From Leucobacter sp. wl10 (lineage in GTDB: Bacteria > Actinomycetota > Actinomycetes > Actinomycetales > Microbacteriaceae): 64,000 bases of DNA. Position 1 is the stretch's first letter. The number at the start of each line of letters is the position of its first letter. Positions 41 through 16,932 of the stretch are shown here, piece by piece. The notes beneath the pieces were generated by a model. It was not told the DNA's origin. It made no database searches and was given only the letters and a program-made list of their open reading frames with translations. The position numbers and the translations under genes were made by a program. The stretch is taken from assembly GCF_003569785.1 (NCBI RefSeq), contig NZ_KZ983989.1, positions 1-64,000 of the forward strand, given 5' to 3'.

Positions 41-1396
41 TTACTCCGCGAAGCGGAAGAGCTTCTTGTTGGCGAATTCGAGCATGCCGGCCTGACCCAT
101 CTCGCGACCGTAGCCCGACTTCTTCACACCGCCGAACGGCACGTCCGGCCCGCCGAGCATGCCGGCGCCGATGAACACCATGCCCACGTCGAGCTGATTC
201 CCGATGCGCTCGGCGCGGTCGAGGTCCTCGCAGATGATCACGGCGCTCAGGCCGTAGGGCGAGGAGTTCGTCAGCTCGATCGCCTCCTCGTCGCTCGCCA
301 CGCGGTACAGCTGCGCGACCGGGCCGAACAGCTCCTCGCCGTACACATCCATCTCCGGGGTGATGTCCGTGAGGATCGACGGGGTGTACACGTTGCCCCG
401 AGGCTCGTTGTCGCCGATGAGCAGCCGAGCGCCCTGATCGAGCGCGCTCTGCACCTGCCCGGTGAGCGTCCTGGTCGCCGAGGCCGAGGACAGCGGGCCG
501 AAGTCGCCCGCCTCGTAGGACTGCCCGCCGATCGCCTCCCGGAACCGCTCCGCGAAGGCGTCGAAGAGCGCGTCGGCGACCACGATCCGTTTCGATCCGC
601 TGCAGCTCTGACCGGTGTTGTCCATGCGCCCGATGACGGCCTGCTCGACTGCGCGGTCGAGGTCGTCGGTGTCGAGCACCAGGAAGACGTCGGAACCGCC
701 CAGCTCGAGCACGCACTTCTTCAACGCGCGTCCCGCCTGCTCGGCGACGATCGCGCCGGCCGTCTCGGAGCCGGTCAGCGACACGCCCTGCACGCGGTCG
801 TCGGCGATGATGTCGCCGATCTGCCGGTGGGAGGCGAACACGTTCACGTAGGCGCCATCCGGGAAGCCCGCGTCGCGGAACAGACCCTCGAGCGCCAACG
901 CGGACTCGGGGCACTGACTGGCGTGCCGCAGGATGACGGTGTTGCCCAGGATCAGGTTCGGCACCGCGAACCGCGCGACCTGATAGTACGGGTAGTTCCA
1001 CGGCATGACACCGAGGATCACGCCGGTTCCCTGGAACCGGAAGAAGCTCCGCAGGCCATCCGCCACAGGCAGGGGTTCGTCGGCCAGCCAGGTCTCGGCG
1101 TTCCGGGCGAACGCCGAGACGATCGCCGCGGTGAACTCGATCTCCCCCGCACCCTGCCGCAACGGCTTGCCCATTTCGCGGTTGATGATCGCCGCAAGGC
1201 CGTCCCTGCGCTCGATGAAGAGCTCCGCGAGGCGCTGGGCGAGCGCGGCGCGTTCGGCGATCGTGGTGCCTCGCGCCCATTCGCGGTAGGAACGCTGTGC
1301 GGCGGCGAGCGCCCACTCGATCTCACCGTCCTGCGTCGCGGGGTACTCGGCGACGCTCTGCCCCGTCGCCGGATCGGTCACGGCGAATGCTGCCAT
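41..1396 (-). CDS. NAD(P)-dependent aldehyde dehydrogenase (succinate-semialdehyde dehydrogenase-like)
   Basis: This is an aldehyde dehydrogenase superfamily enzyme that oxidises an aldehyde to a carboxylate in the cytoplasm. The 451 residues match the short semialdehyde dehydrogenase branch. Visible landmarks are MPWNYP with the oxyanion Asn134, the SLTGSETAG cofactor loop (about 206-214), the general base Glu231 in ELGGSD, and the nucleophile Cys265 in GQSCSGSKR. The C-terminal PFGGVKKSGYGRE motif is present. It starts at an ATG 37 bases after the IolD-like stop, so it is probably co-transcribed at the end of the catabolic cluster. A terminal role, turning a semialdehyde from the aminotransferase or ring cleavage into an acid, fits the context. 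The substrate is inference; the family call is firm. Confidence 0.92.
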   Translation of the reverse strand: MAAFAVTDPATGQSVAEYPATQDGEIEWALAAAQRSYREWARGTTIAERAALAQRLAELFIERRDGLAAIINREMGKPLRQGAGEIEFTAAIVSAFARNAETWLADEPLPVADGLRSFFRFQGTGVILGVMPWNYPYYQVARFAVPNLILGNTVILRHASQCPESALALEGLFRDAGFPDGAYVNVFASHRQIGDIIADDRVQGVSLTGSETAGAIVAEQAGRALKKCVLELGGSDVFLVLDTDDLDRAVEQAVIGRMDNTGQSCSGSKRIVVADALFDAFAERFREAIGGQSYEAGDFGPLSSASATRTLTGQVQSALDQGARLLIGDNEPRGNVYTPSILTDITPEMDVYGEELFGPVAQLYRVASDEEAIELTNSSPYGLSAVIICEDLDRAERIGNQLDVGMVFIGAGMLGGPDVPFGGVKKSGYGREMGQAGMLEFANKKLFRFAE

Positions 1397-1433
1397 CTGT
1401 GCTCTCCTTCAGCCTTCAGTCGAGACGGGCCGC

Positions 1434-3350
1434 TCAGATCCGGCCCGGCGCCGCAGTGGCGGCGTAGAAGCGCTGGCGCGCGCGCCCCTCGAGATGCTTG
1501 GCGGTGCCCTCCCGGTTCCCCGGACGTTCCGAGGTCATCGGGACCCCCACGTCCCAGAAGGCTCCGTTGCCGGAGAGATACCGGTACGGCTCGACCCTGG
1601 CGACGATCACCGCGGGGCGATCCTCGACCGTCCGGGCCTCTGCGAGCGCATCCCGGAGCTCATCGACGGTCGTCGCCGTCCAGGCGGCCGCGCCCATGCT
1701 GGCAGCGTTCGCCGCGATGTCGATGTCGACCAGGGTCCCGTCGAAGTTGCCGCGCTCAGCGGTGCGCTCGCGCAGCTGGGTGCCGAACTCCGCACCCTTG
1801 CCGCCTTTGGCCTCCTGCAGCGGCCAGATGCACTGATTGCCGCGGTTGTCGATCACCACGACCGTGAACTTCTCGCGCAGCTGCGTACCCGTGACGAGCT
1901 CCGTGGGCTGCATGAAGTAGGTGCCGTCACCGATGAGCACAAAGACGTCGCCTGGGGCACCGGGCGTTGCGAGGCGATAGCCGAGGCCCGCGGGGATCTC
2001 GTGGCCCATGCACGAGTTCGCGTACTCGAAGTGGATCTCGGTACCGTTGGACGGGTCCCAGGACTTGTGCACCAGCTCGACCGCCCCGCCCGAACCCAGC
2101 ACGAGCGCATCCTCGGCCCCCGTGTGCTCGTTGAGCACTCGGGCCACCTGCGCCTGGCTCATGACCTCGCCGGGGAAATCCTGCAGGTCGTGCTCGAGCC
2201 GCTCTGCCGTCTCCCGCTGTGCGTCGGCGATCTCGATGCTGTACTCCTCGGGGGTGGCATACCCCGAGTCGGTCAGCTGCTCGTGCAGTGCGGCCAGGGA
2301 GAGCTTCGCGTCCCCCACCACCGGGAACGAGCCCATCTTGTGCGCGTCGAAGGAGCTGACGTTGAGATGCACGAACCGCACCTCGGGGTTCTGGAACAGC
2401 GAGTGCGAAGCGGTGATGAAGTCCTGCAGGCGGGTGCCCACGGCGATCACGCAATCCGCCTGCTCCGCGAGACGGTCGGCTCCGACGGTGCCGGTGACCC
2501 CGAGGCCGCCGACGCCCAGCTCACCGATCGGACCGGCGCCCTTGCCCGCGAAGGTCTCGGACACGGGGATCCCGAACTCCGCGCTGAAAGCGGCCAGGGC
2601 TTCCTGCGCCTTCGCGTAGCGCACGCCGCCGCCGGCGACGATGAGGGGCCGCTTCGCGCCGCGGATGATCTCGACGGCGTCCTGAAGCTCGGCCGGGGTG
2701 GCGGGACGGCGGCGGATCGGCCAGACGCGCGGAGCGAAGAACGACTCGGGGAAGTCGAACTCGGCGCCCTGGATGTCCTGCGGCAGGCAGACGACGACCG
2801 CGCCGGTATCGACGGGATCCGTCAGCGCGCGCATCGCCTCGGGCAGGGTGGACAACAGTTGCGCCGGGTGGGTGATGCGATCGAAGTAGCGGCTGACGGG
2901 CCGGAAGCAGTCGTTCGCCGACACGTCGCGCTCGACGGGGTGCTCGACCTGCTGCAGCACGGGGTCGCCGAAGCGGTTGGTGATGATATCCGCAGGGAAG
3001 AGCAGCACGGGCAGACGGTTGGTCGTGGCCGTCGCCGCGCCGGTGACCATGTTGGTCGATCCCGGGCCGGCCGAAGCCGTGCACGCGAGCGTGGACATGC
3101 GGTTGGTCGCCTTGGCGTAGCCGATCGCCGCATGCACCATGGATTGCTCGTTCTTGCCCGGATAGAAGGGGAAATCGGTCCCGTACTCGTCGATGCCCTG
3201 CGCGAGACCGACCGAGTTGCCGTGCCCGAAGATGCCGTACATGCCCGGCACCAGGCGCCGGCGCTCCCCGTCATACTCGCTGTACTGGACCTGCAGGTAC
3301 TCGACGATGGCCTGCGCGACGGTGCGACGGCGTACCTCTGTGCTGCTCAT
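1434..3350 (-). CDS. iolD: ThDP-dependent IolD-like ring-cleaving hydrolase
   Basis: This thiamine-diphosphate enzyme most resembles IolD, the 3D-trihydroxycyclohexane-1,2-dione hydrolase of inositol catabolism, in length (638 aa) and motifs. The N-terminal Pyr domain has MYGIFGHGN (about 37-45) and the catalytic Glu68 in KNEQSMVHAA. A central domain follows, and the C-terminal PP domain carries the ThDP/Mg motif GDGTYFM at 474 with Asn502. The C-terminus keeps the FWDVGVP segment seen in IolD. No iolB, iolC or iolE is nearby, so classical myo-inositol use is not supported. The related cyclohexane-1,2-dione hydrolases show that the fold also cleaves other cyclic diones. It starts at ATG, with the PucR regulator gene 130 bases upstream. 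The exact substrate is unknown. Confidence 0.8.
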   Translation of the reverse strand: MSSTEVRRRTVAQAIVEYLQVQYSEYDGERRRLVPGMYGIFGHGNSVGLAQGIDEYGTDFPFYPGKNEQSMVHAAIGYAKATNRMSTLACTASAGPGSTNMVTGAATATTNRLPVLLFPADIITNRFGDPVLQQVEHPVERDVSANDCFRPVSRYFDRITHPAQLLSTLPEAMRALTDPVDTGAVVVCLPQDIQGAEFDFPESFFAPRVWPIRRRPATPAELQDAVEIIRGAKRPLIVAGGGVRYAKAQEALAAFSAEFGIPVSETFAGKGAGPIGELGVGGLGVTGTVGADRLAEQADCVIAVGTRLQDFITASHSLFQNPEVRFVHLNVSSFDAHKMGSFPVVGDAKLSLAALHEQLTDSGYATPEEYSIEIADAQRETAERLEHDLQDFPGEVMSQAQVARVLNEHTGAEDALVLGSGGAVELVHKSWDPSNGTEIHFEYANSCMGHEIPAGLGYRLATPGAPGDVFVLIGDGTYFMQPTELVTGTQLREKFTVVVIDNRGNQCIWPLQEAKGGKGAEFGTQLRERTAERGNFDGTLVDIDIAANAASMGAAAWTATTVDELRDALAEARTVEDRPAVIVARVEPYRYLSGNGAFWDVGVPMTSERPGNREGTAKHLEGRARQRFYAATAAPGRI

Positions 3351-3424
3351 GCGTTCTCCTCACATCGATGCTCCCGGCGGTCGCGCCGGTTCGTGTCGAG
3401 GATCATGCTTCCACCGGCGCGCAC

Positions 3425-3438
3425 GGCACCGGTGTGCC
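3425..3438. promoter_or_regulatory. candidate operator before the iolD-like gene
   Basis: The 130-base gap between the PucR gene and the IolD-like gene contains an inverted repeat with arms GGCAC and GTGCC and a 4-base centre, about 75 bases before the IolD start. An AT-rich CCATTTTGG follows directly. This is the only distinctive structure in the gap and could bind the adjacent PucR protein. No good -35/-10 pair was recognised. Confidence 0.25.
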
Positions 3439-3480
3439 ATTTTGGTACGCGGGTGGTCGCCTGCGGTGCCGATCCCGCAC

Positions 3481-4980
3481 CTACTCGATGAGGGATCGGG
3501 CCTCCACCGCGAGCCAGAGCTCGAAGAGATCGCGGTAGAGCTTCAGGCTCCGCCCCGTGAGCTGCTCGATGCGGCGAAGCCGGTACGTCAGGGTGTGCTC
3601 GTGGACGAAGAGCTGCGCGGCGGCCTTCCGCAGCCGGCCCTGCTGCTGGAAGTACACGGAGAGCGTGTGCAGCAGCTCGGTTCCATGCTCGGCGTCGTGC
3701 CGCATGATCGGCAGCAGCGCCCCGTTCGCGAGCTGCTCCATCGTCTCCACGTCTGGGTTCAGCCAGCGGGTCAGGCCGAACTGCTCCTCCGCGAGCACGA
3801 CCGCGTTCTCCGGCGACTCCCCCGCGAGGTTCAACGCCCAGAGGCTCTGCCGCTGCGCGCGCGGCAGTTCGGCGATTCCGGTGATCGACGAGCTCGCGCC
3901 CGCTCGGATCCCGAGTTCGGCGACGAGGCTCTGCAGCTCCGATTCGCCGCAGGCGACCAGCGCGAACAGCCTGCCCTGCGCCAGCAGCAGATGGGGCAGG
4001 GCCCGATCGGCGAGCCAGTCGCGCACCCGGATCTCGCTCAACCCACCACTCGGCTGCTCGAGGGCGAGCAGCCTCAGGCCTTGGGCGGGATCGAGGCCGG
4101 CATCGATGAGCTGATCCTCCAGGTCATCTGCGGCGAGCTGCCCATCCAGCGCGCTCGACAGCAGCGCGCTCCCTCGACGGTGCACCGCCTCGCGTCGCCG
4201 CTGGTCGTCGATGGCGTCGAGCACCGCGAGTGTGCTCACATGCTGCAGCGCCGCGAGGCCGCCCGGAGCGACCCCGGCTCGTTCCTTGCCCACGAGATAC
4301 GCGGTCACCCGATCACCGACGTAGAGCGGGAGCACGTACCCGTCGGGGATCACCCGCAGATCAGCAGCGGCCTCGGTGCCGTGATGCAGCTCCAGCCCAT
4401 CGGGCACCCAGCTCCAGTCGCTCAGCAGCGGGCGCCCGGCCGGGGATACCAGCGCCAGGCGGTATCCGGAGATCTGCTCCAGCTGCGCATAGATCTCGAC
4501 GCCGTTGTTCTCGGCGCCGTTCCGCAGCCGGAGCGTCTCGAAGATCCGCAGATGGCGGGAGAGGCGCCCTCGCGCCGACCGCTCGCTCGCCCCGGCGACG
4601 AGATGCGAGAGCTCGATGAACGGCACCTGGCGCGGGATGCGCAGCACGGGGAACGAGAGACGGTCGGCCTCGTCGAGCAGTTCCTGGCTCAACTCGGGCG
4701 CTTTGACGCTCACGGCCAGACCTGCGAGACGGTGATGCGCCAGTCGGGCGAGGTACTCGACCTGCCCCTCGGGATCCGGTGGGATGCCGAAGCCGTTCAC
4801 GATCAGCAGCTCCCCGCCCTCCAACCACGGCCCGGGATCGGAGAGCTCGGAGACGTGCGTCCACAGCACGGGGTTCGTCGCCGCGCTCGCGCCGGCGACG
4901 AGCCGCAGGCCCAAATGCGGCATGGCGACGAGGTCGGCGATCGTCAGGAACTCCCGCGCAACGGTGTGGTTCACAGGCAC
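3481..4980 (-). CDS. PucR-family transcriptional regulator
   Basis: A 499-residue regulator with the PucR architecture: an N-terminal PucR domain beginning LTIADLVAMPHLGLRLVAG, a central GGDEF-like/CdaR region, and a C-terminal PucR helix-turn-helix (HEHTLTYRLRRIEQLTGRS). The family controls catabolism of purines, hydantoins and other nitrogen compounds. The frame is open to 5253, but that overlaps the upstream oxidoreductase. The chosen GTG at 4980 has GGAGG about 7 bases upstream, and the PucR domain begins about 11 residues after it. A second GTG two codons on is possible. Its position inside the hyuAB/iolD cluster implies it regulates that cluster. The effector is unknown. Confidence 0.88.
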   Translation of the reverse strand: MPVNHTVAREFLTIADLVAMPHLGLRLVAGASAATNPVLWTHVSELSDPGPWLEGGELLIVNGFGIPPDPEGQVEYLARLAHHRLAGLAVSVKAPELSQELLDEADRLSFPVLRIPRQVPFIELSHLVAGASERSARGRLSRHLRIFETLRLRNGAENNGVEIYAQLEQISGYRLALVSPAGRPLLSDWSWVPDGLELHHGTEAAADLRVIPDGYVLPLYVGDRVTAYLVGKERAGVAPGGLAALQHVSTLAVLDAIDDQRRREAVHRRGSALLSSALDGQLAADDLEDQLIDAGLDPAQGLRLLALEQPSGGLSEIRVRDWLADRALPHLLLAQGRLFALVACGESELQSLVAELGIRAGASSSITGIAELPRAQRQSLWALNLAGESPENAVVLAEEQFGLTRWLNPDVETMEQLANGALLPIMRHDAEHGTELLHTLSVYFQQQGRLRKAAAQLFVHEHTLTYRLRRIEQLTGRSLKLYRDLFELWLAVEARSLIE

Positions 4981-5071
4981 TGCGCCCCCTCCTCGTGTCG
5001 ATTCCGACGATGTCGCCGCGGCCGCGCGGCGAGCGCGTGTGCGCCCCGGGACCGCGGGGCGCACCTCGCCG

Positions 5072-6220
5072 TCAGTCGAAGCGGTACGGCTCCTGCGGAC
5101 CGACCGAGGGCAGCGGCCGCGGCCGTTCGCAGGTGCTCTCGATCTCGATGTGCCGGCCCTGCTCCGAGGAGGCCTCGAAGGCGAGCAGGATCTCCAGCAC
5201 GTGGTAGGCGAACTCGCCGCCCGTCCGCGGCTCGACGTCGGCGCGGATCGCATAGCCGAACTCGGCCAGGCCGATCCCGCGATACGCGTCGTCGCGGTGA
5301 GTGATCGACGTCTCCCGCCAGTCGCCCCCGCCGGGAGGTGTCATATCGAGCGCGAGGTCCCGCGGTTCACCGCGCCGCAGCACCGGAGCGCCGGAGAAGT
5401 GATCGGGGTTCGGTGCCGCGATGGATCCGCTCGTCCCGTAGATCTCCAGATGGGGCAGGTGGTGGTTCCACACGTCCCAGCTCACCACCACCGTGGCGAC
5501 CGCTCCCGACTCGAAGTCGATCGTGCCCGTCACATGGGTGGGGGTACGGATATCGATGACGCCGTCGAAGCCGCCGTCGCCCGTCGGCCGGGGCCGGGTT
5601 TCGGACGAACGGGGAGCCGAGGCGCTCACGCGCGCCGCGGGCCCGAAGAGGTTCACCAGATTGGTGATGAGGTACGGGCCGATGTCGAGCATGGGACCGG
5701 CGCCCGCGCTGTAGAACGGATCCACGTTCGGATGCCAGTACTCGTACCCCCGGCAGGCGAAGGATCCGAACGCTGCGACGGGCCGTCCGATCCAGCCGTC
5801 GTCGATGAGTTTGCGGCTCGTCTGCATCCCCGAGCCGAGGAAGGTCGTGGGAGCCGAGCCCACCTTGACACCGGCTTCGCGGGCGGCCTCGAGGATCTGC
5901 CTCGCCTCGTCGAGCGTGGTCGCGAAGGGCTTCTCGGAGAGCACGTGCTTTCCCGCTGCGATCGCCTGCAGTGTGACGGGGGCGTGGAGCTTCGGCGGTG
6001 TGAGGTTGAGCACCAGCTCCACCTCGTCGTCGGCGAGCAACTCGTCCGGCGAGAGCGCCTTCGGCACCGCGTACTCGGCCGCGCGCGCCTGCGCCGCCGC
6101 CGCGTTGACGTCGGCGAGGGCGACGATGCTCACGTCGGGGTGCACGCCGATCTTGTCCAGATACTGGTTCAGCACGTTCCCGACACCGATGATGCCGACT
6201 CGAATGGGTTCCATGCTCAT
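5072..6220 (-). CDS. Gfo/Idh/MocA-family oxidoreductase
   Basis: A 382-residue NAD(P)-dependent dehydrogenase of the Gfo/Idh/MocA superfamily, which oxidises or reduces sugars, cyclitols and related polyols. The N-terminal Rossmann fold starts IRVGIIGVGN. The conserved SEKPFATT motif, whose Lys is catalytic, is at about 100, followed by the alpha/beta substrate domain. The ATG overlaps the hyuB stop as ATGA, so translation is coupled, and an upstream GGAGAAGGCGAGGG gives a ribosome site. Inositol dehydrogenase IolG is in this superfamily, so with the IolD-like gene a cyclitol-type substrate is one possibility. Sequence alone does not decide it. Confidence 0.87.
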   Translation of the reverse strand: MSMEPIRVGIIGVGNVLNQYLDKIGVHPDVSIVALADVNAAAAQARAAEYAVPKALSPDELLADDEVELVLNLTPPKLHAPVTLQAIAAGKHVLSEKPFATTLDEARQILEAAREAGVKVGSAPTTFLGSGMQTSRKLIDDGWIGRPVAAFGSFACRGYEYWHPNVDPFYSAGAGPMLDIGPYLITNLVNLFGPAARVSASAPRSSETRPRPTGDGGFDGVIDIRTPTHVTGTIDFESGAVATVVVSWDVWNHHLPHLEIYGTSGSIAAPNPDHFSGAPVLRRGEPRDLALDMTPPGGGDWRETSITHRDDAYRGIGLAEFGYAIRADVEPRTGGEFAYHVLEILLAFEASSEQGRHIEIESTCERPRPLPSVGPQEPYRFD

Positions 6221-7968
6221 GCCCTCGCCTTCTCCGTAGCCTCGTCGTCGATTGTGCCATCGACGATCACCACGCCGTAGATCGCCCGTGCCGCCTCCGG
6301 TGTGACGCGCAGTTCTCGCACGTCGTCGAGCACCGCCTCGGGGTCGCGCTCCCGCGGATCCCCGTATCCGCCGCCGCCGGGGGTGATCGAGACGATCTTC
6401 TGCCCGCGCAGCAGTTCGTATCGGCCGACGACTGGGACCTCGCTGCGCTCGCCGGTCTCCAGGTCCTCGACCCAGGTGATCGGTTCGGCGCCGCCGCGAC
6501 CGCCGCGCACCCCCTTGGGCGGGTTAAGTTTTCCCTCGATCCCGTAGGTGAGCGTCACCTGCGCAACCCGGGATTCCATGGTCACTCGCGATCCCAGACC
6601 GCCGCGCTGGCGGCCGGCGCCACCGGAGTCCGCCACGAGGGCGCGCTCGTGGATGAGAATCGGATAGCGCTGCTCGTCGACCTCGACGCTGTCGTGATAG
6701 AGCAGCGCGTTGCACACGGGCCGCTGGTAGGTGGGCCAGCCGTCGACATACGGCGTCGCGGGACCGCCGACCCCGCCCACGAGGATCTGGTTCACGTACG
6801 CGTTGCCGGTGCGCTCGTCGGTTCCCGAGATCACTGATTTCGCCGGGGCCTGCCCCGCGGCGCCCTCTGCGGTGCCGTAGCCATCCGCGATCTGGGAGAA
6901 CGCCGCCTGCGCGATGTTCACGATCCGATCGGCGAGATTCGTCGTCCCGGACGAGCAGGAGAACGGATGCCGGGGGATCCCGACCGCGCTGCCCTCGCGC
7001 AGCAGCACGTCGACCCGGCGGAAGGTGCCCGCATTGCTCGGCAGATTCTCCGGGATCCCCGAGAGGATGCCGGCGAGCGCCGCACCCGTCGCGGTCGCGC
7101 GGGTGAGGTTCAGCCCGTTCGGCAGGTTGTCGGGGTTGTCCCGCAGATCGATCGAGATGCGGCCTTCCGGGGGTTTGACCTCGATCGTCGCCTGCAGCTG
7201 CACGCCCTCGGGACCCGTGCCGGGGAAGGGATCGTGTGTTGACCGGCCGTGCAGCACGCACTCCGGCATCGTCTCGATGGCGCTCGCAGCCAGGCGTTCG
7301 GAGTAGTCGAACCAGGCGTCGACGAAGTCGACGAGGTCGACGACCCCGAACTTCTCCGCGAGCTCCGTGATGCGGCGCTCTGCGATGCGCGAGGCGCCGA
7401 CCGAGGCGAGGTAGTCGCCGTACCACTGGTCCGGCACGCGGATGCGGGCCCGGCACATGCGGACGATGTCGTCGATGTCGGTGTAGTCGCGCTGCACCCG
7501 GACGCACGGGAAGATCAGCGCGCCCTCCTCGTAGACATCGCGAGCGGTTGCGAAGAAGGTCGTCGGCAGCGAGTTGCCGCAGTCGGCCTGGTGCGCCTTC
7601 GTCACCGCGGTGAACAGATGCCGGCCCTCGAGGAAGATGGGCACGAGGATCACGTGATCAGCGGCGTGGGAGTTGCCCCGATACGGGTCGTTGTGCAGGA
7701 AGGCGTCTCCCTCGCGGATGTCGTCGTGCAGCTCGATCATGTCCTCGCCCAGCGGTCCGGCGCCGAACACGTGCACCGGCACGCCCTCGGCAGCGGCGAG
7801 CAGCTGGTTGTCCGCGGTCAGCACGGCGCACGAGAAATCCCGCGCCGTGTTGATGACCGAGGAGCGAGCCGATCGGAGCAGTCCGTTCGTCATCTCTCGC
7901 ACGATGCCGTCGAACGCATTGGCCAGCACCGAGAGCTTCACAGGGTCGAATTCGCGCGTCACGATCAC
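6217..7968 (-). CDS. hyuB: hydantoinase B / oxoprolinase beta-type subunit
   Basis: A 583-residue protein of the hydantoinase B/oxoprolinase family (Pfam Hydantoinase_B). With HyuA it forms an ATP-dependent amidase that opens cyclic amides such as N-methylhydantoin, 5-oxoproline or caprolactam. The related acetone and acetophenone carboxylases use the same fold. Landmarks are the HNDPYRGNSHAADH segment near 92-105, which belongs to the metal site in the family, and the C-terminal TPGGGGYGDP motif. The GTG start overlaps the hyuA stop as GTGA, the usual coupling for two subunits of one complex. Which ring it opens cannot be read from the sequence. Confidence 0.9.
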   Translation of the reverse strand: MIVTREFDPVKLSVLANAFDGIVREMTNGLLRSARSSVINTARDFSCAVLTADNQLLAAAEGVPVHVFGAGPLGEDMIELHDDIREGDAFLHNDPYRGNSHAADHVILVPIFLEGRHLFTAVTKAHQADCGNSLPTTFFATARDVYEEGALIFPCVRVQRDYTDIDDIVRMCRARIRVPDQWYGDYLASVGASRIAERRITELAEKFGVVDLVDFVDAWFDYSERLAASAIETMPECVLHGRSTHDPFPGTGPEGVQLQATIEVKPPEGRISIDLRDNPDNLPNGLNLTRATATGAALAGILSGIPENLPSNAGTFRRVDVLLREGSAVGIPRHPFSCSSGTTNLADRIVNIAQAAFSQIADGYGTAEGAAGQAPAKSVISGTDERTGNAYVNQILVGGVGGPATPYVDGWPTYQRPVCNALLYHDSVEVDEQRYPILIHERALVADSGGAGRQRGGLGSRVTMESRVAQVTLTYGIEGKLNPPKGVRGGRGGAEPITWVEDLETGERSEVPVVGRYELLRGQKIVSITPGGGGYGDPRERDPEAVLDDVRELRVTPEAARAIYGVVIVDGTIDDEATEKARA

Positions 7969-10061
7969 GCCTCCTTACGGGTCAGGTAGATGTTGGATCG
8001 ATCATCGAGCTGCGCATCCCACTCGGGAGGGATGACGATCGTGGTCGTCGGCTGATCGATGATCGCGGGGCCGTCCACCCGCTCGCCCGGCGAGAGCGTG
8101 ACCCCGCGGTAGCGCGGGGTGTCGTGGCTCTCGCCGCCGAACACGATCGGATCGGTGCGATGGACGACCGTCTCCCCCACCGACCCGGACTCGGCGCTCA
8201 GCTGCTCGGGACGCGGGATCTCGACCCGCACGCCCCAGGTGATGATCTCGACGCGGCTGTCGGGATCGTGCGTGCCGTTGCGGCGGTCGTGCTCGGCGTG
8301 GAAGGCGCGCTCGATCGCCCGGGCCGCGTCCCCTTCCGGGTTCGGGACCCCCTCCAGATACACCCGGAGGTCCCAGGCCTGACCGGGGTAGCGCGCATCG
8401 ACGAAGTAACTGGTCGTCGCATCGGGATTCACGCCGAGGAAGCGTTCGGCGAACGCCGCGCCCTTGGCTGAGAGGCCGTCGATCGCGGTGCGCGCCGACA
8501 CCGGGTTGAAGCCGCGGGTGTCGTTATGCAGGGGCGACAGGAACTCCGTGGCGATCGGGGCGCGATGCGCCCCGTAGGCCGCGAGCACACCCGCCGTGGC
8601 GGGAATGAGCACGGTGTCGGTCTCGAGGATCTTTCCGATGATCGCCGCGACCATCGCGCCGGCGCCGCCACCCGCGACGACGAGGGCACCGCGCGGATCC
8701 ACGCCCTGCTCCAGCGCGGCCTGGCGCGTCGCCGTGGCCATCTGGTGCGCGGAGACCTCGAGGATCGCCTGCGCGGCCTGCAGCGTGTCCATGCCGAGCG
8801 GCCCGGCGATCCTGGTGTCGATCGCACGAACCGCGGCCTCGCGGTCCAGGGTGAAGCCGCCTTCGAAGCCCTCGACGTCGAGGTAGCCCAGCGCGACGCA
8901 GGCGTCGGTGACGGTCGGCTCGATGCCGCCGCGACCGTATGCCGCAGGACCGGGAGTGCTGCGGGCGCTCTGCGGTCCGACGCGCAGCAGGCCTCCTCCA
9001 TCGATCCACGCGATGCTGCCGCCTCCCGCACCGATGCTGGTGACCGCGACCGAGGACAGACCGGTCAGATGCCCGATGAACGGTTCGCCCAGCCAGGCTT
9101 CGCGGGTGTGGCGCACCACGCCCTTCTCCACGAGCGAGACGTCGAAGGTCGTGCCGCCCATGTCGCACACGACCACGGTCTCCCGGTCCGGTGCGGCGGC
9201 CGCGCCGACGAGCGGCGCCATCGAGGGGCCCGAGTTGAGCAGCAGCACCGGCCGGTCGAGCACGTCGACTACGTCGAGCACGGCACCCTCAGAGGTCACC
9301 ACGAGCAGATCGCCGCCGAACCCGAACTCGAGCAGGTCGGAGCGCAGCTTGCCCAGGTGATCCGCCATGAGCGGCTTCAGCGAGGCGTCGATCGCGGCCG
9401 CGGAGGCACGCCGATACTCCCGGATCGTCGGGTTCGCGTCGTGCGAGAGGGTGTAAGGAATGCCCGGCAGCTCCTCCTCGATGAGCTCCGCGATCCGGCG
9501 TTCATGTGCACTGTTGATGATCGACCAGAGACAGGCCACGGCCACCGCCTCGATGCCCCGATCGGCGAGGGGCCTCAGCGACTCGCGCACTCGGTCCTCA
9601 TCGAGCGGGACGAGCACCTCGCCCTCGGCGGAGATGCGCTCGGTCACCTCCAGGGTGAGGTGGCGCGGAACGTAGGGCGGCGGATAGGCGGCCTTCGAAT
9701 CGAATGCCTCGCGACGTCCGCCCTCGCGCAGCAGCAGCGTGTCAGCAAAGCCGTCGGTCACGAGCAGCGCGGTCTTCGCGACCTTCCCGGTCAGCACTGC
9801 GTTCGTCGCGTGGGTCGTGCCGTAGACGATCACATCGGCGTGGCGCAGTACCTGCTCCCCCGTCCACCCGACCGACTCGGCTGCGCGCGACACGGCGGCC
9901 AGGAATCCTGTGAACACCCGGTCGTAGGTGGTGAGGGCCTTGCCGACCGCCATCTGCCCACTGCTGGAGCCGACCACCACATCGGTGAAGGTTCCTCCGG
10001 TGTCGACGGCGATGCGGAATCTCAGGTCCTCGCCGGCTCGTCCAACTGCGATCTCGTTCAT
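7965..10061 (-). CDS. hyuA: hydantoinase A / oxoprolinase alpha-type subunit
   Basis: The ATP-binding partner of HyuB, 698 residues, in the acetate/sugar-kinase-like fold. The N-terminal domain has the phosphate loop VDTGGTFTDVVVG at about 19-31. The central domain has the second phosphate motif CDMGGTTFDVSLVE, then SIGAGGGSIAWID and the adenosine-region VVAGGGAGAMVA. It is expected to phosphorylate the amide oxygen so that HyuB can hydrolyse the ring. It starts at ATG 10061, 17 bases after the stop of the FAH-family gene. The length is typical for hydantoinase A rather than a carboxylase subunit, but no residue seen here separates the two roles. Confidence 0.9.
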   Translation of the reverse strand: MNEIAVGRAGEDLRFRIAVDTGGTFTDVVVGSSSGQMAVGKALTTYDRVFTGFLAAVSRAAESVGWTGEQVLRHADVIVYGTTHATNAVLTGKVAKTALLVTDGFADTLLLREGGRREAFDSKAAYPPPYVPRHLTLEVTERISAEGEVLVPLDEDRVRESLRPLADRGIEAVAVACLWSIINSAHERRIAELIEEELPGIPYTLSHDANPTIREYRRASAAAIDASLKPLMADHLGKLRSDLLEFGFGGDLLVVTSEGAVLDVVDVLDRPVLLLNSGPSMAPLVGAAAAPDRETVVVCDMGGTTFDVSLVEKGVVRHTREAWLGEPFIGHLTGLSSVAVTSIGAGGGSIAWIDGGGLLRVGPQSARSTPGPAAYGRGGIEPTVTDACVALGYLDVEGFEGGFTLDREAAVRAIDTRIAGPLGMDTLQAAQAILEVSAHQMATATRQAALEQGVDPRGALVVAGGGAGAMVAAIIGKILETDTVLIPATAGVLAAYGAHRAPIATEFLSPLHNDTRGFNPVSARTAIDGLSAKGAAFAERFLGVNPDATTSYFVDARYPGQAWDLRVYLEGVPNPEGDAARAIERAFHAEHDRRNGTHDPDSRVEIITWGVRVEIPRPEQLSAESGSVGETVVHRTDPIVFGGESHDTPRYRGVTLSPGERVDGPAIIDQPTTTIVIPPEWDAQLDDRSNIYLTRKEA

Positions 10062-10078
10062 CTGCTCTCTGCACCTTC

Positions 10079-11005
10079 TTACGTGTTTGCCTGTGTGTTC
10101 GCGGCGGCCGCGGCCGGATCCGCCACGCGGTTGCTGAGCACCCCGACCCGCTCGATCTCGATCTCGATCTCATCCCCCGGGTGCAGCCAGATCGGCGGGT
10201 TGCGCTTCGCCCCGATGCCCTGCGGTGTGCCCGTGGCGATCACGTCGCCGGGCGACAGCGTCAGGAATCGCGAGAGGTAGGAGACGATGTCGGCGACCCG
10301 GAAGATCTGGTGCCGCGTGTTGGATCGCTGCAGCTCCACGCCGTTGACGCGCGTCGCGAGCTCCAGGGACTGCGGATCGCCGACCTCGTCGAGGGTGACG
10401 ATCGCCGGCCCCCACGGCGTGGAGCCGTCGACCGATTTACCCGCGAGCCACTGCGTTCCGCGATACTGCAGGTCGCGGGCCGTGATGTCGTTCAGGACGG
10501 CGAAACCGGCGACGTGGTCGAGCGCCTCATCGGGGCCGACCCGGCTCGCGGACCGCCCGATGACCACCGCGAGTTCTCCCTCGAAGTCGAGGTTCTCGGT
10601 GATGTCGGCTCCCCCGATCTCGTCCTCCGGACCGATCATGGTCGAGGCAAACTTCGGGAAGATGTCCGGATACTCGGGCAGCGCCCGACCGGTCTCCGCG
10701 ACGTGGTCGCGGTAGTTCAGGCCGACGCAGAGCACCTTCGCGGGGTCCGGCAGTGGAGCCGTCAGCCGAACCTCTGAGCGCGCGCCGACGCGGTCCCTCG
10801 CGTTCGCCCCGGCCAGCCGTACGATCTCGGCGGAGAGCGCGCCGAGCCGGTCGCCGTAGAGGCTCAGGAACTCCCGCACCGACGCCGTCGAGCCGAACAC
10901 GGCTCCGTCGGCCGCGTCGAGCAGATCTTCGAGATCGTACACCGAGTCGTCGACGAGCACGCCGCCCCGCGCACCCGAATCGTGGGCGTAGGAAACGATT
11001 TTCAC
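10079..11005 (-). CDS. fumarylacetoacetate hydrolase family protein
   Basis: A 308-residue FAH-superfamily enzyme. These metal-dependent enzymes cleave C-C bonds of acylpyruvates or act as 2-keto-acid hydratases or decarboxylases in catabolic pathways. Motifs: LCVGLNYRDHVAETG (about 91-105), metal-ligand acids in FEGELAVVIGR, NDITARDLQ, and the C-terminal TGTPQGIG loop. It starts at a GTG with AAAGGAAG upstream. It follows the aminotransferase gene after 30 bases and precedes hyuA, all on the same strand. It could split or hydrate a 2-oxo acid formed later in the pathway. The activity within the superfamily is undetermined. Confidence 0.88.
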   Translation of the reverse strand: MKIVSYAHDSGARGGVLVDDSVYDLEDLLDAADGAVFGSTASVREFLSLYGDRLGALSAEIVRLAGANARDRVGARSEVRLTAPLPDPAKVLCVGLNYRDHVAETGRALPEYPDIFPKFASTMIGPEDEIGGADITENLDFEGELAVVIGRSASRVGPDEALDHVAGFAVLNDITARDLQYRGTQWLAGKSVDGSTPWGPAIVTLDEVGDPQSLELATRVNGVELQRSNTRHQIFRVADIVSYLSRFLTLSPGDVIATGTPQGIGAKRNPPIWLHPGDEIEIEIERVGVLSNRVADPAAAAANTQANT

Positions 11006-11035
11006 CGTTCGTCTTCCTTTCTTCTGGGTTCGGGA

Positions 11036-12307
11036 TCAGGCAGCCGTGGCGAGGACCGCATCGGCCAGGCGTTCGACGATGTCGTCGACCGCGCCCTGAT
11101 CCATCGGGGTGGACAGCGACAGCAGGTTCGCCGGCGAGCCCAGCAGGCCGCGCTCGTAGCTCTCCCACCACAACCGGTACTGGGTGGCCTCGTCGACCTT
11201 CTCCGCGCCGACGGGCACGGCCCGGATCAGCGATCCACGGCCTCGAACCTCCCACCCGGCGTCCGCGACGCGCGCGTTCAGCGTCTCGCGCGCGGCGTCG
11301 CCAAGGCGGTTCAGACGCTCCACCTCGTCCGCCGGGTACAGCCGCAGCGCCGCGGCGCCGGCCGCCATCGACACGGGGTTCCCGGAGAACGTCCCCCCGT
11401 AGGGGAGGCTGCCCGGGCGGGTCGGATCGGTCTCTCGCATGAGCGCCTCCAATCCGACCACGGCGCCCACGGGGAGGCCGCCGCCGATGAGCTTTCCGGT
11501 GGTGAGCAGGTCGGGCGATACCCCGCACTCGCCGCTCGCTCCGCCGTGGCCGAGGCGCAGACTGATGGTCTCGTCGATGATCAGCACGATCCCGTGCCTG
11601 GTCGCGAGCTGCCGTGCCTCGCGCACGAACGGTTCTGAGACGCTCAGCAGTCCGGCGCGGTTCGGCAGGAGGTCGAGGATGATCGCCGCGTAGCCGCTCG
11701 CATCCGCCTCGACCGCCTCCCGCAGCGAAGCGATGTCGTTGAGCGGCACCGTCGTCACGTCCTTGACGACGCCCCGGGTGACCCCGCGGGTGTAGCCGGG
11801 ACCGCCGGGCACCAGCGCCACCTCCGAGGTGCCGTGGTATCCCCCGCGCGTCACGATCACCCGTTCGCGTCCGGTGCTCGCGCGGGCGATGCGGATCGCC
11901 GACATCACGGCTTCGGTGCCCGAGTTCGCGAAGCGCACCTGGTCCAGCTGCGGCAGGCGCGCGAGCAGCAGCTCCGCGAGATCCCACTCGTACAGGTTCG
12001 GGATCCCCCAGCTCGCGCCCTCGGAGAGCGCCTTCGTGGCGGCCTCGACAATCTCGGGGTGGGCGTTGCCGTGGATGAGGGCGGTGAAGTTGTTGTTCGC
12101 GTCGATCAGTTCCCGGCCTCGGTCGTCGGTCACGAGGTACCCCGTGCCGCAGATCGCGTAGGGGCTGGGCGCGCCGGTGTAGTAGGTGGATCGGCCGTAG
12201 CCCCCGGGAAGGAGCGGATGACCGCGCGGCCCGCGTCGCAGGTGCGGATCCTCCGCGGTCTGCCGGTCGGTCGCGGCGGGCCGCTCCGTCTGATTGCTCG
12301 TCGTCAC
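11036..12307 (-). CDS. class III PLP-dependent aminotransferase (glutamate-1-semialdehyde aminomutase-like)
   Basis: A 423-residue class III aminotransferase. The PLP Lys lies in LLTTGKLIGGGLPVGA, the PLP-ring Asp in LIIDETISLRLG, and the phosphate-binding NSGTEAVMSA segment is intact. The closest look is glutamate-1-semialdehyde aminomutase-like enzymes, but the catabolic setting suggests an omega- or beta-amino acid transaminase rather than haem synthesis. The frame is open far upstream through the dehydrogenase gene. I chose the GTG at 12307, 9 bases after GGAG; a GTG at 12322 directly after the upstream stop is an alternative. Acting on the amino acid released by HyuAB and handing a semialdehyde to the aldehyde dehydrogenase would be coherent. 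This is inference. Confidence 0.87.
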   Translation of the reverse strand: MTTSNQTERPAATDRQTAEDPHLRRGPRGHPLLPGGYGRSTYYTGAPSPYAICGTGYLVTDDRGRELIDANNNFTALIHGNAHPEIVEAATKALSEGASWGIPNLYEWDLAELLLARLPQLDQVRFANSGTEAVMSAIRIARASTGRERVIVTRGGYHGTSEVALVPGGPGYTRGVTRGVVKDVTTVPLNDIASLREAVEADASGYAAIILDLLPNRAGLLSVSEPFVREARQLATRHGIVLIIDETISLRLGHGGASGECGVSPDLLTTGKLIGGGLPVGAVVGLEALMRETDPTRPGSLPYGGTFSGNPVSMAAGAAALRLYPADEVERLNRLGDAARETLNARVADAGWEVRGRGSLIRAVPVGAEKVDEATQYRLWWESYERGLLGSPANLLSLSTPMDQGAVDDIVERLADAVLATAA

Positions 12308-12324
12308 GTTCTGCGTCTCCACTC

Positions 12325-13275
12325 TTACTCGGTCACCAGGTCGATCAGGGGCTGATCCGTGAGCGCGAGGCGCACGCGCTCCACGGCGCCGTCCTGGAGG
12401 GCCCCTGTGGATCGGTTCGACCGCCATGCGATGTGCGGGGTGAGGATCGTATTCGGCGCGGAGCGCAGGGGATGCTCCGGGTCGAGCGGCTCCTGTGCGA
12501 AAGTGTCGATGCCGGCGCCGGCGATGCGACCCGACCGCAGCGCGGCGGCGAGCGCCACCTCGTCGACGAGGCCGCCGCGGGAGACGTTGACCACCACCGC
12601 TCCCTCGCGCATGCGCTGCAGCACCTCGTCCGAGACGAGGTTCCAGGTCGCGTCGCTCAGGGGCAGGTGCAGGGACACGACGTCGGAGTTCTCGAGCACG
12701 TCGTCCAGGCCCGCCATCTCGACGAAGCTCTCGGTGACGAACGGGTCGTAGGCCCGCACGCTCGCGCCGACCGCTGAGTACATCCGTGCGACGTGCTGAC
12801 CGATGCGTCCCATGCCGACGACGCCCACCTCGAGCGCCGAGAGAGGCGGGGTGTCGTAACCGATGATGCCGCCCCAGCCGAAGTCGCGGATCGCCGTGTC
12901 GCCCGCCGGGAGCCGCCGCGTCAGCGCGAGCCCCATCGCGAAGGCGTGCGACGCCACCTCCTCGGACGCGGTGCCGGGCACGATCGAGACCGGGATCCCG
13001 GCCCGTGCGGCTGCACCGACGTCGATGTTGTCGTAGCCGATTCCGTAGCGGATCACCGCTCTGCACTGGCGCATGAGGGGGAAATCCTCCGCGGTGAGTC
13101 GCGCATAGGGCGTGACCATCACGATCTCCGCCTCGGGCAGGCCCGCGCGGAACGAGTCGGCGTCGGCGGCGACGACCAGCTCGTAGCCGAACTCGTCGGC
13201 GAGCGACCGCTCACGGTCCAGGTCCGGGAAGTGGTGGGGGGCCACCAGGATCTTTCCCCCGCTGTCACGGCTCAT
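12325..13275 (-). CDS. D-2-hydroxyacid dehydrogenase family protein
   Basis: A 316-residue NAD-dependent 2-hydroxyacid dehydrogenase of the phosphoglycerate dehydrogenase/CtBP type. The NAD loop GVVGMGRIGQHVAR is central. The catalytic Arg is in VNVSRGGLVDE, the Glu in DTFAQEPLDPEHP, and the His in LTPHIAW. The reading frame extends to 13413, but the ATG at 13275 has GAGAGGA 9 bases upstream and gives a normal family length. It is the first gene of the catabolic cluster, with a terminator and inverted repeats just upstream, so the cluster promoter should lie in 13276-13417. It interconverts a 2-hydroxy and a 2-oxo acid; the substrate is unknown. Confidence 0.88.
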   Translation of the reverse strand: MSRDSGGKILVAPHHFPDLDRERSLADEFGYELVVAADADSFRAGLPEAEIVMVTPYARLTAEDFPLMRQCRAVIRYGIGYDNIDVGAAARAGIPVSIVPGTASEEVASHAFAMGLALTRRLPAGDTAIRDFGWGGIIGYDTPPLSALEVGVVGMGRIGQHVARMYSAVGASVRAYDPFVTESFVEMAGLDDVLENSDVVSLHLPLSDATWNLVSDEVLQRMREGAVVVNVSRGGLVDEVALAAALRSGRIAGAGIDTFAQEPLDPEHPLRSAPNTILTPHIAWRSNRSTGALQDGAVERVRLALTDQPLIDLVTE

Positions 13276-15275: not shown

Positions 15276-15347
15276 CTGGGGTGCCTCCTTCGTCGAACCA
15301 CCGCGAAGCCGCCGATTGATTGATCAAGCTAACACAGGCAGCGGGGC

Positions 15348-15401
15348 TGTGGGTTTCGACTTCGCCACAATCCACCACACCCGGCCTTGGCAGAACCCAC
15401 A
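15348..15401. promoter_or_regulatory. TGTGG/CCACA repeat cluster before the AcoR-like gene
   Basis: The roughly 195-base gap between rarA and the AcoR-like gene contains perfect 8-base arms TGTGGGTT (15348-15355) and AACCCACA (15394-15401). Two more CCACA copies lie between them, and a CACAG/CTGTG pair lies just beside them. The cluster is 73-126 bases before the start codon, a plausible autoregulatory site. No convincing -35/-10 pair was found. Confidence 0.3.
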
Positions 15402-15470
15402 ATGCCCCGGCGACCTACTCTCGAGAGTCGCGTGCGCGGCGCGGCGCCAGACCATGCGCCGCCAGCACAC

Positions 15471-16841
15471 TCAGCCGCCGCGCGTGATGCGGCGGATCTT
15501 CTCCAGGCGGTCGGCGATCTCGCGCTCGTTGCCGTGCTGCGTCGGCGAGTAGTAGACCCTGTCGACCAGTTCGTCGGGCAGGTACTGCTGCTGCGACACG
15601 CCGCGCGGGTCGCTGTGCGGGTAGCGGTAGCCCTTGCCGTGGCCCATGCGCTTCGCGCCGGGGTAATGGGCGTCGCGCAGGTGCTTCGGCACGAGGCCGA
15701 AACTGCCGCGCTTGACATCGGCGATCGCGGCGTCGATCGCGGTGATCACGGCGTTCGACTTGGGGGCCGTGGCGATGTAGATGGTCGCCTCGGCGAGCGG
15801 GATCCGCGCCTCCGGCAGCCCGATGAGCTGCGTGGCCTCGGCCGCCGCGACCGCGACCTGCAGCGCCTGGGGATCCGCCATGCCGACGTCCTCCGCCGCG
15901 TGCACCATGAGCCGGCGCGCGATGAAGCGCGGATCCTCCCCCGCCTCGATCATGCGGGCCAGGTAGTGGATCGCCGCGTCGGGATCCGAGCCGCGCATCG
16001 ACTTGATGAACGCGCTGATCACGTCGTAGTGCTGATCGCCGTCGCGGTCGTACCGGAGCAGCGCCCGGTCGACCGAGACCGACACGATCTCGGGGGTGAC
16101 CCGGGGCCTCTCGCCCGCCTCCGACTCGGGCCGCTCCATCGCGAGCGCCGAGGCCGCGGCCGCCTCGAGGCCCGTGAGCGCTCGGCGCGCATCCCCCGAG
16201 GCGAGCTGCACGAGTGCCGCGAACGCCTCGTCGTCGACCTCGACGGCGCCCGAGAGGCCCCGCGGATCCTCCACGGCACGCTCGAGCAGGACGCGCAGAT
16301 CGGCGTGCTGCAGAGGCTCGAGCGTCAGGAGCAGCGAGCGCGAGAGCAGCGGGCTGATCACCGAGAAGGAGGGGTTCTCGGTCGTCGCCGCGACGAGCGT
16401 CACCCACCCGTTCTCCACGCCGGGCAGCAGCGCGTCCTGCTGGGCCTTGGTGAAGCGGTGGATCTCGTCGAGGAAGAGCACGGTGGAGGTGTCGTAGAGA
16501 TCCCGGTCGTCGAGCGCGCGCTCCATCACCGCGCGCACGTCCTTGATGCCCGCCGTGACCGCGGAGAGCTCGACGAAGCGGCGACCGCTCGAGTGCGCGA
16601 TCGCCTGGGCGAGCGTGGTCTTGCCCGTCCCCGGCGGTCCCCACAGGATCACCGACACCGCTCCCCCGCCCCCTTCCGAATCGGCGGCGAGCGTGCGCAG
16701 CGGGGATCCGGGTCGCAGCAGATGCTGCTGCCCCACCACCTCATCGAGCGTGCGCGGCCGCATGCGCACCGCCATGGGGGCGGTGTGCGACGGCACGGCT
16801 CTCGATTCCACGTCCACAATGGTATCGATCGCCACCGACAT
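15471..16841 (-). CDS. rarA: replication-associated recombination protein A (RarA/MgsA AAA+ ATPase)
   Basis: A clamp-loader-like AAA+ ATPase that acts at stalled replication forks. Walker A is [16 protein letters not shown] and Walker B is [10 protein letters not shown]; sensor residues follow in TTENPSFSV. The C-terminal half carries the tetramerisation region with [10 protein letters not shown] and [15 protein letters not shown]. The N-terminal [17 protein letters not shown] matches the family start. The frame is open to 16985. I chose the ATG at 16841 (456 aa, family-normal), though its ribosome site is weak and a later ATG at 16775 is possible. The gene is divergent from the DUF349 gene. 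Confidence 0.93.
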
Positions 16842-16932
16842 CCCGGCCTCGAACCCCCTGGCTGTGGCATAGTGGAGGGGTCTATTCCGTATGGTCGGCG
16901 CGCCGGCCCACACACGACAGGTGAGCAGAACC

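Follow-up and report, generated by a model that had tools for sequence, protein, structure and literature searches.

A conserved actinobacterial locus with HyuAB-type and IolD-like enzymes and its possible role in the catabolism of nitrogenous polyol rings

The window analyzed here is a stretch of 64,000 bases, positions 1–64000 of contig C3 (NZ_KZ983989.1) of Leucobacter sp. wl10, whose 3.8 Mb genome is assembled in 64 contigs. Its left end carries a catabolic gene cluster, herein referred to as the locus, which includes genes for a HyuAB-type enzyme pair, a class III aminotransferase, and an IolD-like thiamine diphosphate (ThDP) enzyme. Positions 41–13275 are filled by nine tightly packed genes, all on the minus strand. 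A tenth gene, encoding an AcoR-like AAA/Fis transcription regulator (13485–15275, minus strand), precedes them and is part of the same unit. Neighboring genes among the nine are separated by -4 to 130 bases: the Gfo/Idh–HyuB and HyuB–HyuA pairs overlap by 4 bases each, the remaining gaps are 17 to 130 bases, and 209 bases lead to the tenth gene. These figures are affected by the starts of the PucR and aminotransferase genes, which are estimates. The best Pfam E-values for the nine genes range from 1.5e-25 to 8.2e-125; NCBIfam models were also scored, and both collections agree with the families assigned to the nine genes in an initial annotation made from the sequence alone. Expected motifs were found in all eight enzyme genes; their roles in the enzymes other than HyuAB are part of general knowledge of these families.

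The AcoR-like regulator (PF25601, PF02954), encoded by the first gene of the unit, is followed by a D-2-hydroxyacid dehydrogenase (12325–13275; PF02826, PF00389) with the SRGG, DTFAQEP, and TPHIA motifs. A tRNA-Pro (cgg) called by ARAGORN at 12929–13014 (plus strand) was taken as false, since it lies antisense inside this conserved gene and no Rfam match at the gathering threshold was found in the window. The next gene encodes the class III aminotransferase (11036–12286, with a start that may sit up to about 40 bases further out; PF00202; DET and TTGK motifs). Its relatives of solved structure include 6k8h, ForI, GSAM, and beta-phenylalanine aminotransferase, the GSAM/beta-transaminase group being the nearest among them. 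The FAH-family hydrolase (10079–11005; PF01557, 237.3 bits) resembles 2,4-diketo-3-deoxy-acid hydrolases, and its PDB relatives include 8sky, the isomerase/decarboxylase of the 4-hydroxyphenylacetate pathway, and L-2,4-diketo-3-deoxyrhamnonate hydrolase (8gsr). The best of the seven NCBIfam models it matched was NF053535, at 212 bits against a cut-off of 500, which places it outside the 2,4-diketo-3-deoxy-L-rhamnonate hydrolase equivalog. The HyuA/CapA-like ATP-binding subunit (7965–10061; PF01968, PF05378) and the HyuB/CapB-like subunit (6217–7968; PF02538, 417.6 bits) follow, and then a dehydrogenase of the Gfo/Idh/MocA family (5072–6220; PF01408, PF22725; EKP motif). For the latter, no PDB relative was found at E≤1e-20, and the predicted structure (mean pLDDT 55.6) was too poor and was not used. 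The last three genes encode a PucR-family transcription regulator (3481–4974, start inferred, reading frame open to 5253; PF07905, PF13556), the IolD-like enzyme (1434–3350), proposed here as a 1,2-diketone C-C hydrolase, and an aldehyde dehydrogenase (ALDH) resembling succinate-semialdehyde dehydrogenase (SSADH) (41–1396; PF00171, 387.5 bits; SCSG and ELGGS motifs). The best NCBIfam match of this ALDH, NF006915, scores 427.6 bits, under the cut-off of 730.

Related loci were sought with a HyuA alignment scan of the contigs of 84,980 species, from which the best 80 loci were kept. The whole block was found in 17 of these, all with HyuA at least 76% identical; in the remaining 63 (HyuA at most 68%), some of them short, no IolD was seen. 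Adding the window, genomes G009 and G151, the plasmid of Arthrobacter sp. StoSoilB13 (L172), and two genomes that the aminotransferase search brought in gave a comparison of 23 loci in 22 genomes, with duplicates counted once (L098 = G024, L103 = G037, L104 = G036, L113 = G088, and L205 = L106). All 23 have the eight enzyme genes and the AcoR-like regulator on one strand and in one order: AcoR, D-2-hydroxyacid dehydrogenase, aminotransferase, FAH, HyuA, HyuB, Gfo/Idh, IolD, ALDH. The PucR regulator was found in 10 of the 23. The initial annotation had named a lack of co-occurrence elsewhere as evidence against its grouping; the comparison came out the opposite way, and the enzymes form one unit. 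Identity to the window across loci is 51–89%. The most conserved proteins are Gfo/Idh (82–89%) and HyuB (83–88%), and the least conserved are the regulators (51–69%); the D-2-hydroxyacid dehydrogenase is 76–83% identical in the 22 other loci. The compact arrangement can be interrupted or cut: in G024, an MFS transporter and a 2-hydroxyacid dehydrogenase are inserted between PucR and IolD; in L106, about 4 kb separates AcoR from the rest of the block; and in L098, the ALDH is cut by the locus end. In L172 (16750–18496), HyuB matches in two overlapping frames, owing either to a frameshift in the gene or to an error in the sequencing; the count treats this HyuB as present.

The carriers belong to at least six families: Microbacteriaceae, Micrococcaceae, Brevibacteriaceae, Nocardiaceae, Streptomycetaceae, and Pseudonocardiaceae; G783 probably adds a further one. 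An IolD-seeded search of the genus gave 5 of 54 genomes at ≥76% (own genome included), and the four others carry the block. A search of the order seeded with the aminotransferase gave 4 of 396 genomes at E≤1e-90, again including the own one; the block is also present in the three others, among them a repeat of L106 whose examined stretch ends before AcoR. When 394 genomes of the class were searched, the matches listed at E≤1e-165 included no IolD from outside the own genome above 50% identity. Thus, the locus is rare and patchy in its distribution. One copy lies on a 1.0 Mb plasmid, and the named carriers include Arthrobacter sp. NtRootA1 and Paenarthrobacter nicotinovorans SSBW5. The IolD copies of the other Leucobacter carriers cluster with that of G151 (99/95) rather than with the window copy, which suggests horizontal movement of the locus.

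Base 1 of the window is also base 1 of contig C3, and the ALDH gene abuts this contig end. The IolG and FAD-oxidase proteins of a relative, used as queries, match the own genome at C11:597–1592 and C11:11849–14755, respectively. From its left end, C11 encodes IolG (TIGR04380, 355.0 bits, level with the cut-off of 355), a divergent levoglucosan-dehydrogenase-like Gfo/Idh protein (289.8 bits, cut-off 650) followed by a short-chain dehydrogenase/reductase (SDR), an IlvD/Edd dehydratase (PRK06131, 826 bits, cut-off 539), a second D-2-hydroxyacid dehydrogenase, an amino-acid permease (APC), a ribose-type ABC importer, and a YdiJ-like FAD/FeS 2-hydroxyacid dehydrogenase (412.7 bits, cut-off 1350). 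Family assignments of most of these genes were also made on their G009 equivalents. The relatives of IlvD include sugar-acid enzymes, as do those of the FAH hydrolase, and the solved relatives of the ABC substrate-binding protein (C11:10806–11774) are ribose- and sugar-binding proteins, from which no ligand is claimed. In seven of the eight loci having ALDH and IolG on one contig (G009, G024, G088, G151, L204, L101, and L113, the last being one genome with G088), the two genes are direct neighbors, within about 320 bases. Since IolG follows ALDH directly in these relatives, we infer that C3 and C11 adjoin at their left ends and that the assembly splits the locus mid-way. The transporter genes most likely lie across the contig edge; the earlier statement that no transporter was seen in the window would thus reflect an edge effect, as the ABC importer and the permease are found on C11 and in relatives. 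In the eight loci with long flanks, own C11 included, the ABC ATPase, the ABC permease, and the second 2-hydroxyacid dehydrogenase were found in all eight, the binding protein and the APC permease in seven each, and IolG, SDR, IlvD, the levoglucosan-dehydrogenase-like protein, and the FAD-oxidase in six each. Proteins of G009 and G088 were the queries for most flank genes, so their own positives hold by construction. The own genome also encodes, at C1:323128–325983, a second YdiJ-like FAD-linked 2-hydroxyacid dehydrogenase that shares 70% identity with the G009 protein used as query, and a weak ABC ATPase match (31% identity) lies far from the locus at 57657–58205 of the window (minus strand).

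Starting from the observed gene content, co-occurrence, enzyme classes, and conserved motifs, we propose, at somewhat less than an even chance, that the locus is half of a conserved pathway of about 20 genes by which some actinobacteria use a polyhydroxylated nitrogen-containing ring as a carbon and nitrogen source. An aminocyclitol, an iminosugar, or a similar compound is the candidate substrate class. Either the amino-acid permease or the ribose-type ABC importer would take up the ring compound, and the hydroxyls of the latter would be oxidized by the Gfo/Idh, IolG, and SDR dehydrogenases. A cyclic amide, either the original substrate or formed after oxidation, would be opened by HyuAB with ATP, and the amine would be removed by the class III aminotransferase. 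Oxidation of the neighboring hydroxyl would give a 1,2-dione, which the IolD-like enzyme could cleave hydrolytically at the C-C bond into an acid and an aldehyde. The ALDH would then oxidize the aldehyde to an aldarate-like diacid without IolE, IolB, and IolC. Dehydration by IlvD, dehydrogenation, and hydrolysis of a 2,4-diketo acid by the FAH enzyme would yield pyruvate and a 2-hydroxyacid, and the latter would be oxidized by the D-2-hydroxyacid dehydrogenases, two of them NAD-linked and one FAD-linked. Nearly all of the enzymes would find a role if the ring carried a vicinal amino-alcohol, as aminocyclitols and iminosugars do. With the genes on C11, the locus also has an amino-acid permease, a ribose-type importer, and a dehydrogenase of the IolG family, which suits a cyclitol- or sugar-like nitrogen-bearing compound; to this extent the cyclitol-type nitrogenous ring proposed in the initial annotation stands as a candidate substrate, and its order of amide opening before dione cleavage is a proposal.

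The IolD-like enzyme passes the IolD equivalog TIGR04377 (745.8 bits, cut-off 715). This score does not set it apart, as one IolD copy on contig C7 of the same genome scores 747.4. A tree of 53 IolDs was built after sequences with fewer than 560 aligned residues, internal stops, or identical copies were dropped; the Sphingobium IolD (L177) is not in it. The 21 block members form one clade (100/100) with a long stem (1.11), apart from both IolD kinds that Leucobacter also carries, and this is the outcome of the phylogenetic placement that had been proposed as a check. Its sister group consists of two rhizobial IolDs (98/93), a position where long branches may join falsely. For residue comparison, 30 other IolDs were used, 25 from Leucobacter and five plasmid-borne with iol neighbors. 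In these, 155 columns are nearly invariant; the clade keeps 127 of them and departs at 28. It has its own different residue at 15 of the 28, shared by 19 to 21 of its 21 members at positions where the canonical residue occurs in at least 29 of the 30 others; 12 are mixed, and one (440) is canonical in 19 of 21. Kept residues include E68 and the GDG...N ThDP motif. Two stretches, 46–52 and 419–427, hold 10 of the 28 changed columns and 9 of the 15; the first adjoins the HGN motif, the second aligns with the GVGQHQM stretch of acetolactate synthase, and Tyr450 is replaced by His. From this alignment and general knowledge of ThDP enzymes, the changed loops probably line the active site.

IolDs of 47–50% identity occur in 24 non-own genomes. 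In 19 further IolDs of this kind, the canonical residue is present in all 19 at eleven of the thirteen positions examined, in 12 at position 217, and in 13, with 6 gaps, at position 619. Since these fresh sequences mostly keep the canonical residues, the changes belong to the window-type clade, judging by the alignment, and by the invariant residues of inositol IolDs the window enzyme is a separate subfamily. With its probable active-site loops altered, a direct equation of this enzyme with inositol IolD is not supported. Within about 4.8 kb around the 19 loci, only relatives of IolD (19) and ALDH (13) were found. Rhizobial plasmids carry iolD relatives of 50% identity at L171 (14980–16857) and at L173, the NGR234 relative (15001–16869), together with Gfo/Idh and SDR genes and, in L171, a sugar ABC importer and an SMP-30 lactonase. 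No HyuAB relative was seen in about 32 kb around these two, which possibly represent another non-inositol IolD pathway.

Genes for inositol catabolism were found elsewhere in the genome, on C7. They comprise iolB (C7:32899) and iolC (C7:29337), both over their cut-offs, iolE-like matches below theirs and only on this contig, iolG, and two further iolD genes. The latter (C7:33786–35690 and C7:55074–57041; TIGR04377, 832 and 747 bits) are mutually diverged and about 20 kb apart; only the first is near iolB and iolC, and pairs of this kind occur in many other genomes of the genus. Since C7 holds these iol genes, ordinary inositol use need not involve the locus. In agreement with the initial annotation, a search of the own genome found none of iolB, iolC, and iolE in the locus. 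An inositol catabolic gene cluster is defined, in the passages available from PMC9430895, by at least three of iolB, iolC, iolD, and iolE within 10 kb; only iolD is present here, and its residues differ, so an ordinary inositol cluster was rejected. Compared with the myo-inositol iol operon (IolG, IolE, IolD, IolB, IolC), the locus shares IolD- and IolG-family enzymes and a ribose-type ABC importer. In contrast, iolE, iolB, and iolC were not found in it, its IolD forms a separate clade with altered loops, and HyuAB, the aminotransferase, FAH, IlvD, and the 2-hydroxyacid dehydrogenases are added.

The locus might instead be an aminocyclitol entry branch into ordinary inositol catabolism, deaminating an inosamine-like compound as in rhizopine use, with the C7 operon finishing the degradation and the IolD-like enzyme being a further broad IolD. 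The TIGR04377 score over the cut-off and near that of one C7 copy, the C11 IolG exactly at its cut-off, the iolB, iolC, iolD, iolG, and iolE-like genes of C7, and the ribose-type importer would all suit this explanation. It is nevertheless unlikely: the 15 clade-wide IolD changes are absent from nearly all other IolDs, including most positions of the 19 further ones, IolG was not found in G036 and G037, and HyuAB, FAH, IlvD, and three 2-hydroxyacid dehydrogenases would have no ready role. A separate pathway for a nitrogenous polyol ring would employ these enzymes.

Both subunits of the HyuAB pair keep the residues of the ATP-dependent lactamase family (HyuAB/OplAB/CapAB), for which the ATP-site and metal residues and the vicinal disulfide of CapB are described in the available parts of PMC8453981. 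HyuA D20, N276, P279, D300, and D307 correspond to CapA D11, N269, P272, D295, and D302, and HyuB D44, H101, D104, and H126 to the CapB metal ligands D41, H99, D102, and H124. The residues were matched by motif and spacing rather than by full alignment, the first Asp and the first His being 57 residues apart in HyuB and 58 in CapB. With two subunits, an ATP site, and the Asp-His-Asp-His set, the pair is assigned to this family on its sequence, as had been called initially, and would open a cyclic amide with ATP. In a FastTree phylogeny of 85 HyuA sequences (those with fewer than 600 aligned residues, internal stops, or identical copies dropped), the 21 block members form one clade with L107, L108, and L109 (support 1.0), and the block members alone are grouped with support 0.68; the second of the proposed placements is thereby also provided. 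L107 and L109 share HyuAB, the aminotransferase, and the AcoR-like regulator, to which L107 adds FAH and IlvD and L109 a D-2-hydroxyacid dehydrogenase. No IolD was seen in the DNA examined of L107 and L109, so IolD and ALDH may be later additions to an older HyuAB–aminotransferase nucleus.

Caprolactam degradation in Pseudomonas jessenii proceeds through CapAB, an omega-aminotransferase, and oxidation of 6-oxohexanoate (PMC6061476 and PMC8453981, as far as their passages go), and it shares with the locus the two-subunit lactamase family, an aminotransferase, and an ALDH. A lactam or amino-acid route without sugar character, similar to the pyrrolidinone or caprolactam routes, would lead through HyuAB, the aminotransferase, and the ALDH to a dicarboxylate, with the other enzymes trimming substituents. 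The best named relatives of HyuAB are indeed caprolactamase subunits, the caprolactam pathway likewise starts with lactamase and then aminotransferase (PMC6061476, in the part available), and the ALDH is SSADH-like. This route is nonetheless less likely still than the aminocyclitol entry branch. HyuA (474.9 bits, NF050156) and HyuB (287.6 bits, NF050157) are far under the caprolactamase cut-offs of 1000, and no Cys-Cys pair occurs anywhere in the HyuB translation, whereas CapB has a vicinal disulfide (available text of PMC8453981). The nearest aminotransferase relatives of solved structure are GSAM and beta-transaminases. The dione- and sugar-acid-type enzymes that the locus adds, including IlvD and FAH, together with IolG and the ribose-type importer, would be left unexplained. 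The caprolactam pathway itself was rejected on the basis of the cut-offs, the missing Cys-Cys pair, and the aminotransferase relatives, and the plain lactam route of the initial annotation was set aside in view of the latter and of the sugar-acid enzyme set. Its judgment that the gene combination matches no pathway that can be named is borne out by the comparisons with both inositol clusters and caprolactamases.

A slightly less probable alternative is that IolD-like and HyuAB enzymes perform other chemistry, such as ThDP-dependent carboligation or decarboxylation or an ATP-dependent carboxylation. The changes in loops 46–52 and 419–427 and at position 450 would allow for this, and acetone and acetophenone carboxylases belong to the HyuAB superfamily. 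Against it, 127 of the 155 invariant IolD columns are kept, no extra carboxylase subunit was recognized among the neighbors, and HyuA D307, judged by spacing, takes the place of Asp302 of the lactamase, a position occupied by Lys in one acetophenone carboxylase subunit (PMC8453981, in the passages available). A chance neighborhood of unrelated catabolic genes, for which no supporting point was found, is excluded for practical purposes by the strand and order kept in 23 of 23 loci.

Several individual steps of the proposed pathway for a nitrogenous polyol ring have parallels in known systems. Cyclohexane-1,2-dione hydrolase (2pgn) belongs to the same ThDP superfamily and splits a C-C bond of a cyclic 1,2-dione by hydrolysis, after which the aldehyde is oxidized, as proposed here; its sequence relation is weak (profile E-value 2.6e-24), and the protein of the window is a member of the IolD family. 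The non-phosphorylated diketo-hydrolase pathway for L-rhamnose and L-fucose, with an FAH-type 2,4-diketo-3-deoxyrhamnonate hydrolase (8gsr), likewise brings together an IlvD-type dehydratase, an SDR, and an FAH-family hydrolase. In contrast, the FAH protein of the locus is far below the NF053535 cut-off, and nitrogen and ThDP enzymes are added. Rhizopine catabolism by the moc genes likewise involves the chemistry of aminocyclitols, and it would share with the locus a sugar-type binding protein and enzymes of the Gfo/Idh/MocA family, a likeness drawn by description and not by sequence.

Genomes of Arthrobacter have two types of neighbors around the block, herein referred to as the core. The A module consists of Gfo, SDR, IlvD, 2-hydroxyacid dehydrogenase, permease, IolG, and ABC importer genes, and the B module of a flavin monooxygenase, SDR genes, an ALDH, a second AcoR-like regulator, and a permease. 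The StoSoilB13 plasmid has the core, B, and A modules in a row, L092 and L099 show only the SDR pair of the B module, and of the two cores of Arthrobacter sp. S39, L096 lies beside A-type genes and L092 beside B-type SDRs. Since Arthrobacter cores pair with A or B modules, a shared core finishing several related substrates is suggested.

Several points weigh against the proposed pathway. The Arthrobacter cores L097 and L172 adjoin the flavin monooxygenase with SDRs, which suits a less sugar-like starting compound, and in L172 the ALDH and IolG genes stand 15 kb apart. In the DNA examined, IolG and SDR were not found in G036 and G037, nor IlvD in G009 and G024; because of these gaps, the three are not essential to the core. 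Similarity of HyuA led to 18 of the 22 other loci (17 through the wide scan and G151 separately), which are therefore related copies rather than independent inventions. With its altered loops, the IolD-like enzyme may catalyze a reaction other than dione C-C hydrolysis. The substrate class, the order of steps, and every intermediate are deduced from the genes and their enzyme classes. More tentative than the outline above, and only possible, is the full proposal of an undescribed pathway in which a nitrogenous polyol ring undergoes lactam opening by HyuAB, transamination, and dione cleavage by an enzyme of a new IolD subfamily, so that IolE, IolB, and IolC are bypassed and the last steps are those of a diketo-hydrolase route for sugar acids, with the core in Arthrobacter fed by differing peripheral modules and serving several nitrogenous natural products.

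As far as the literature was searched, with few subscription journals covered, no locus joining HyuAB with an IolD-like enzyme was found described; the locus is conserved, built from known enzyme families, and undescribed as a unit. Related work includes papers on rhizopine and a study of bacteria that live on aminoglycosides; in the parts available, no such set of genes is named. Three other catabolic systems were considered and rejected. For lumichrome/riboflavin catabolism, the passages of PMC12746152 name amidases, a P450, xanthine-oxidase-type, and Rieske enzymes without mention of a hydantoinase; a thiamine-dependent enzyme and an FAH gene are also used there. Santhopine catabolism of tobacco-root Arthrobacter is assigned to soc genes, and neither hydantoinase nor inositol is mentioned in the available text of PMC8262997. 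The name of the carrier NtRootA1 comes from the strain series of that paper, whose passages do not include NtRootA1 itself. The molinate genes of Gulosibacter include a HyuAB pair, with no mention of iolD in the portion available of PMC9477822.

If the proposal is true, it would supply the genes and enzymes with which a class of nitrogenous sugar mimics or aminocyclitols is broken down, and a family labeled inositol-specific by automatic annotation would gain a diverged subfamily. This name is likely misleading for the window-type clade, since the window protein passes the TIGR04377 cut-off though it belongs to a diverged subfamily. The named carriers NtRootA1 and SSBW5 make the question directly testable. 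A luciferase-like monooxygenase was found beside HyuAB-type loci in L109 (Mycolicibacterium sp. P9-22, 3371–9198) and L172 (7001–8323); in L109, it is also near a RibBA gene, which hints at an FMN-dependent peripheral step.

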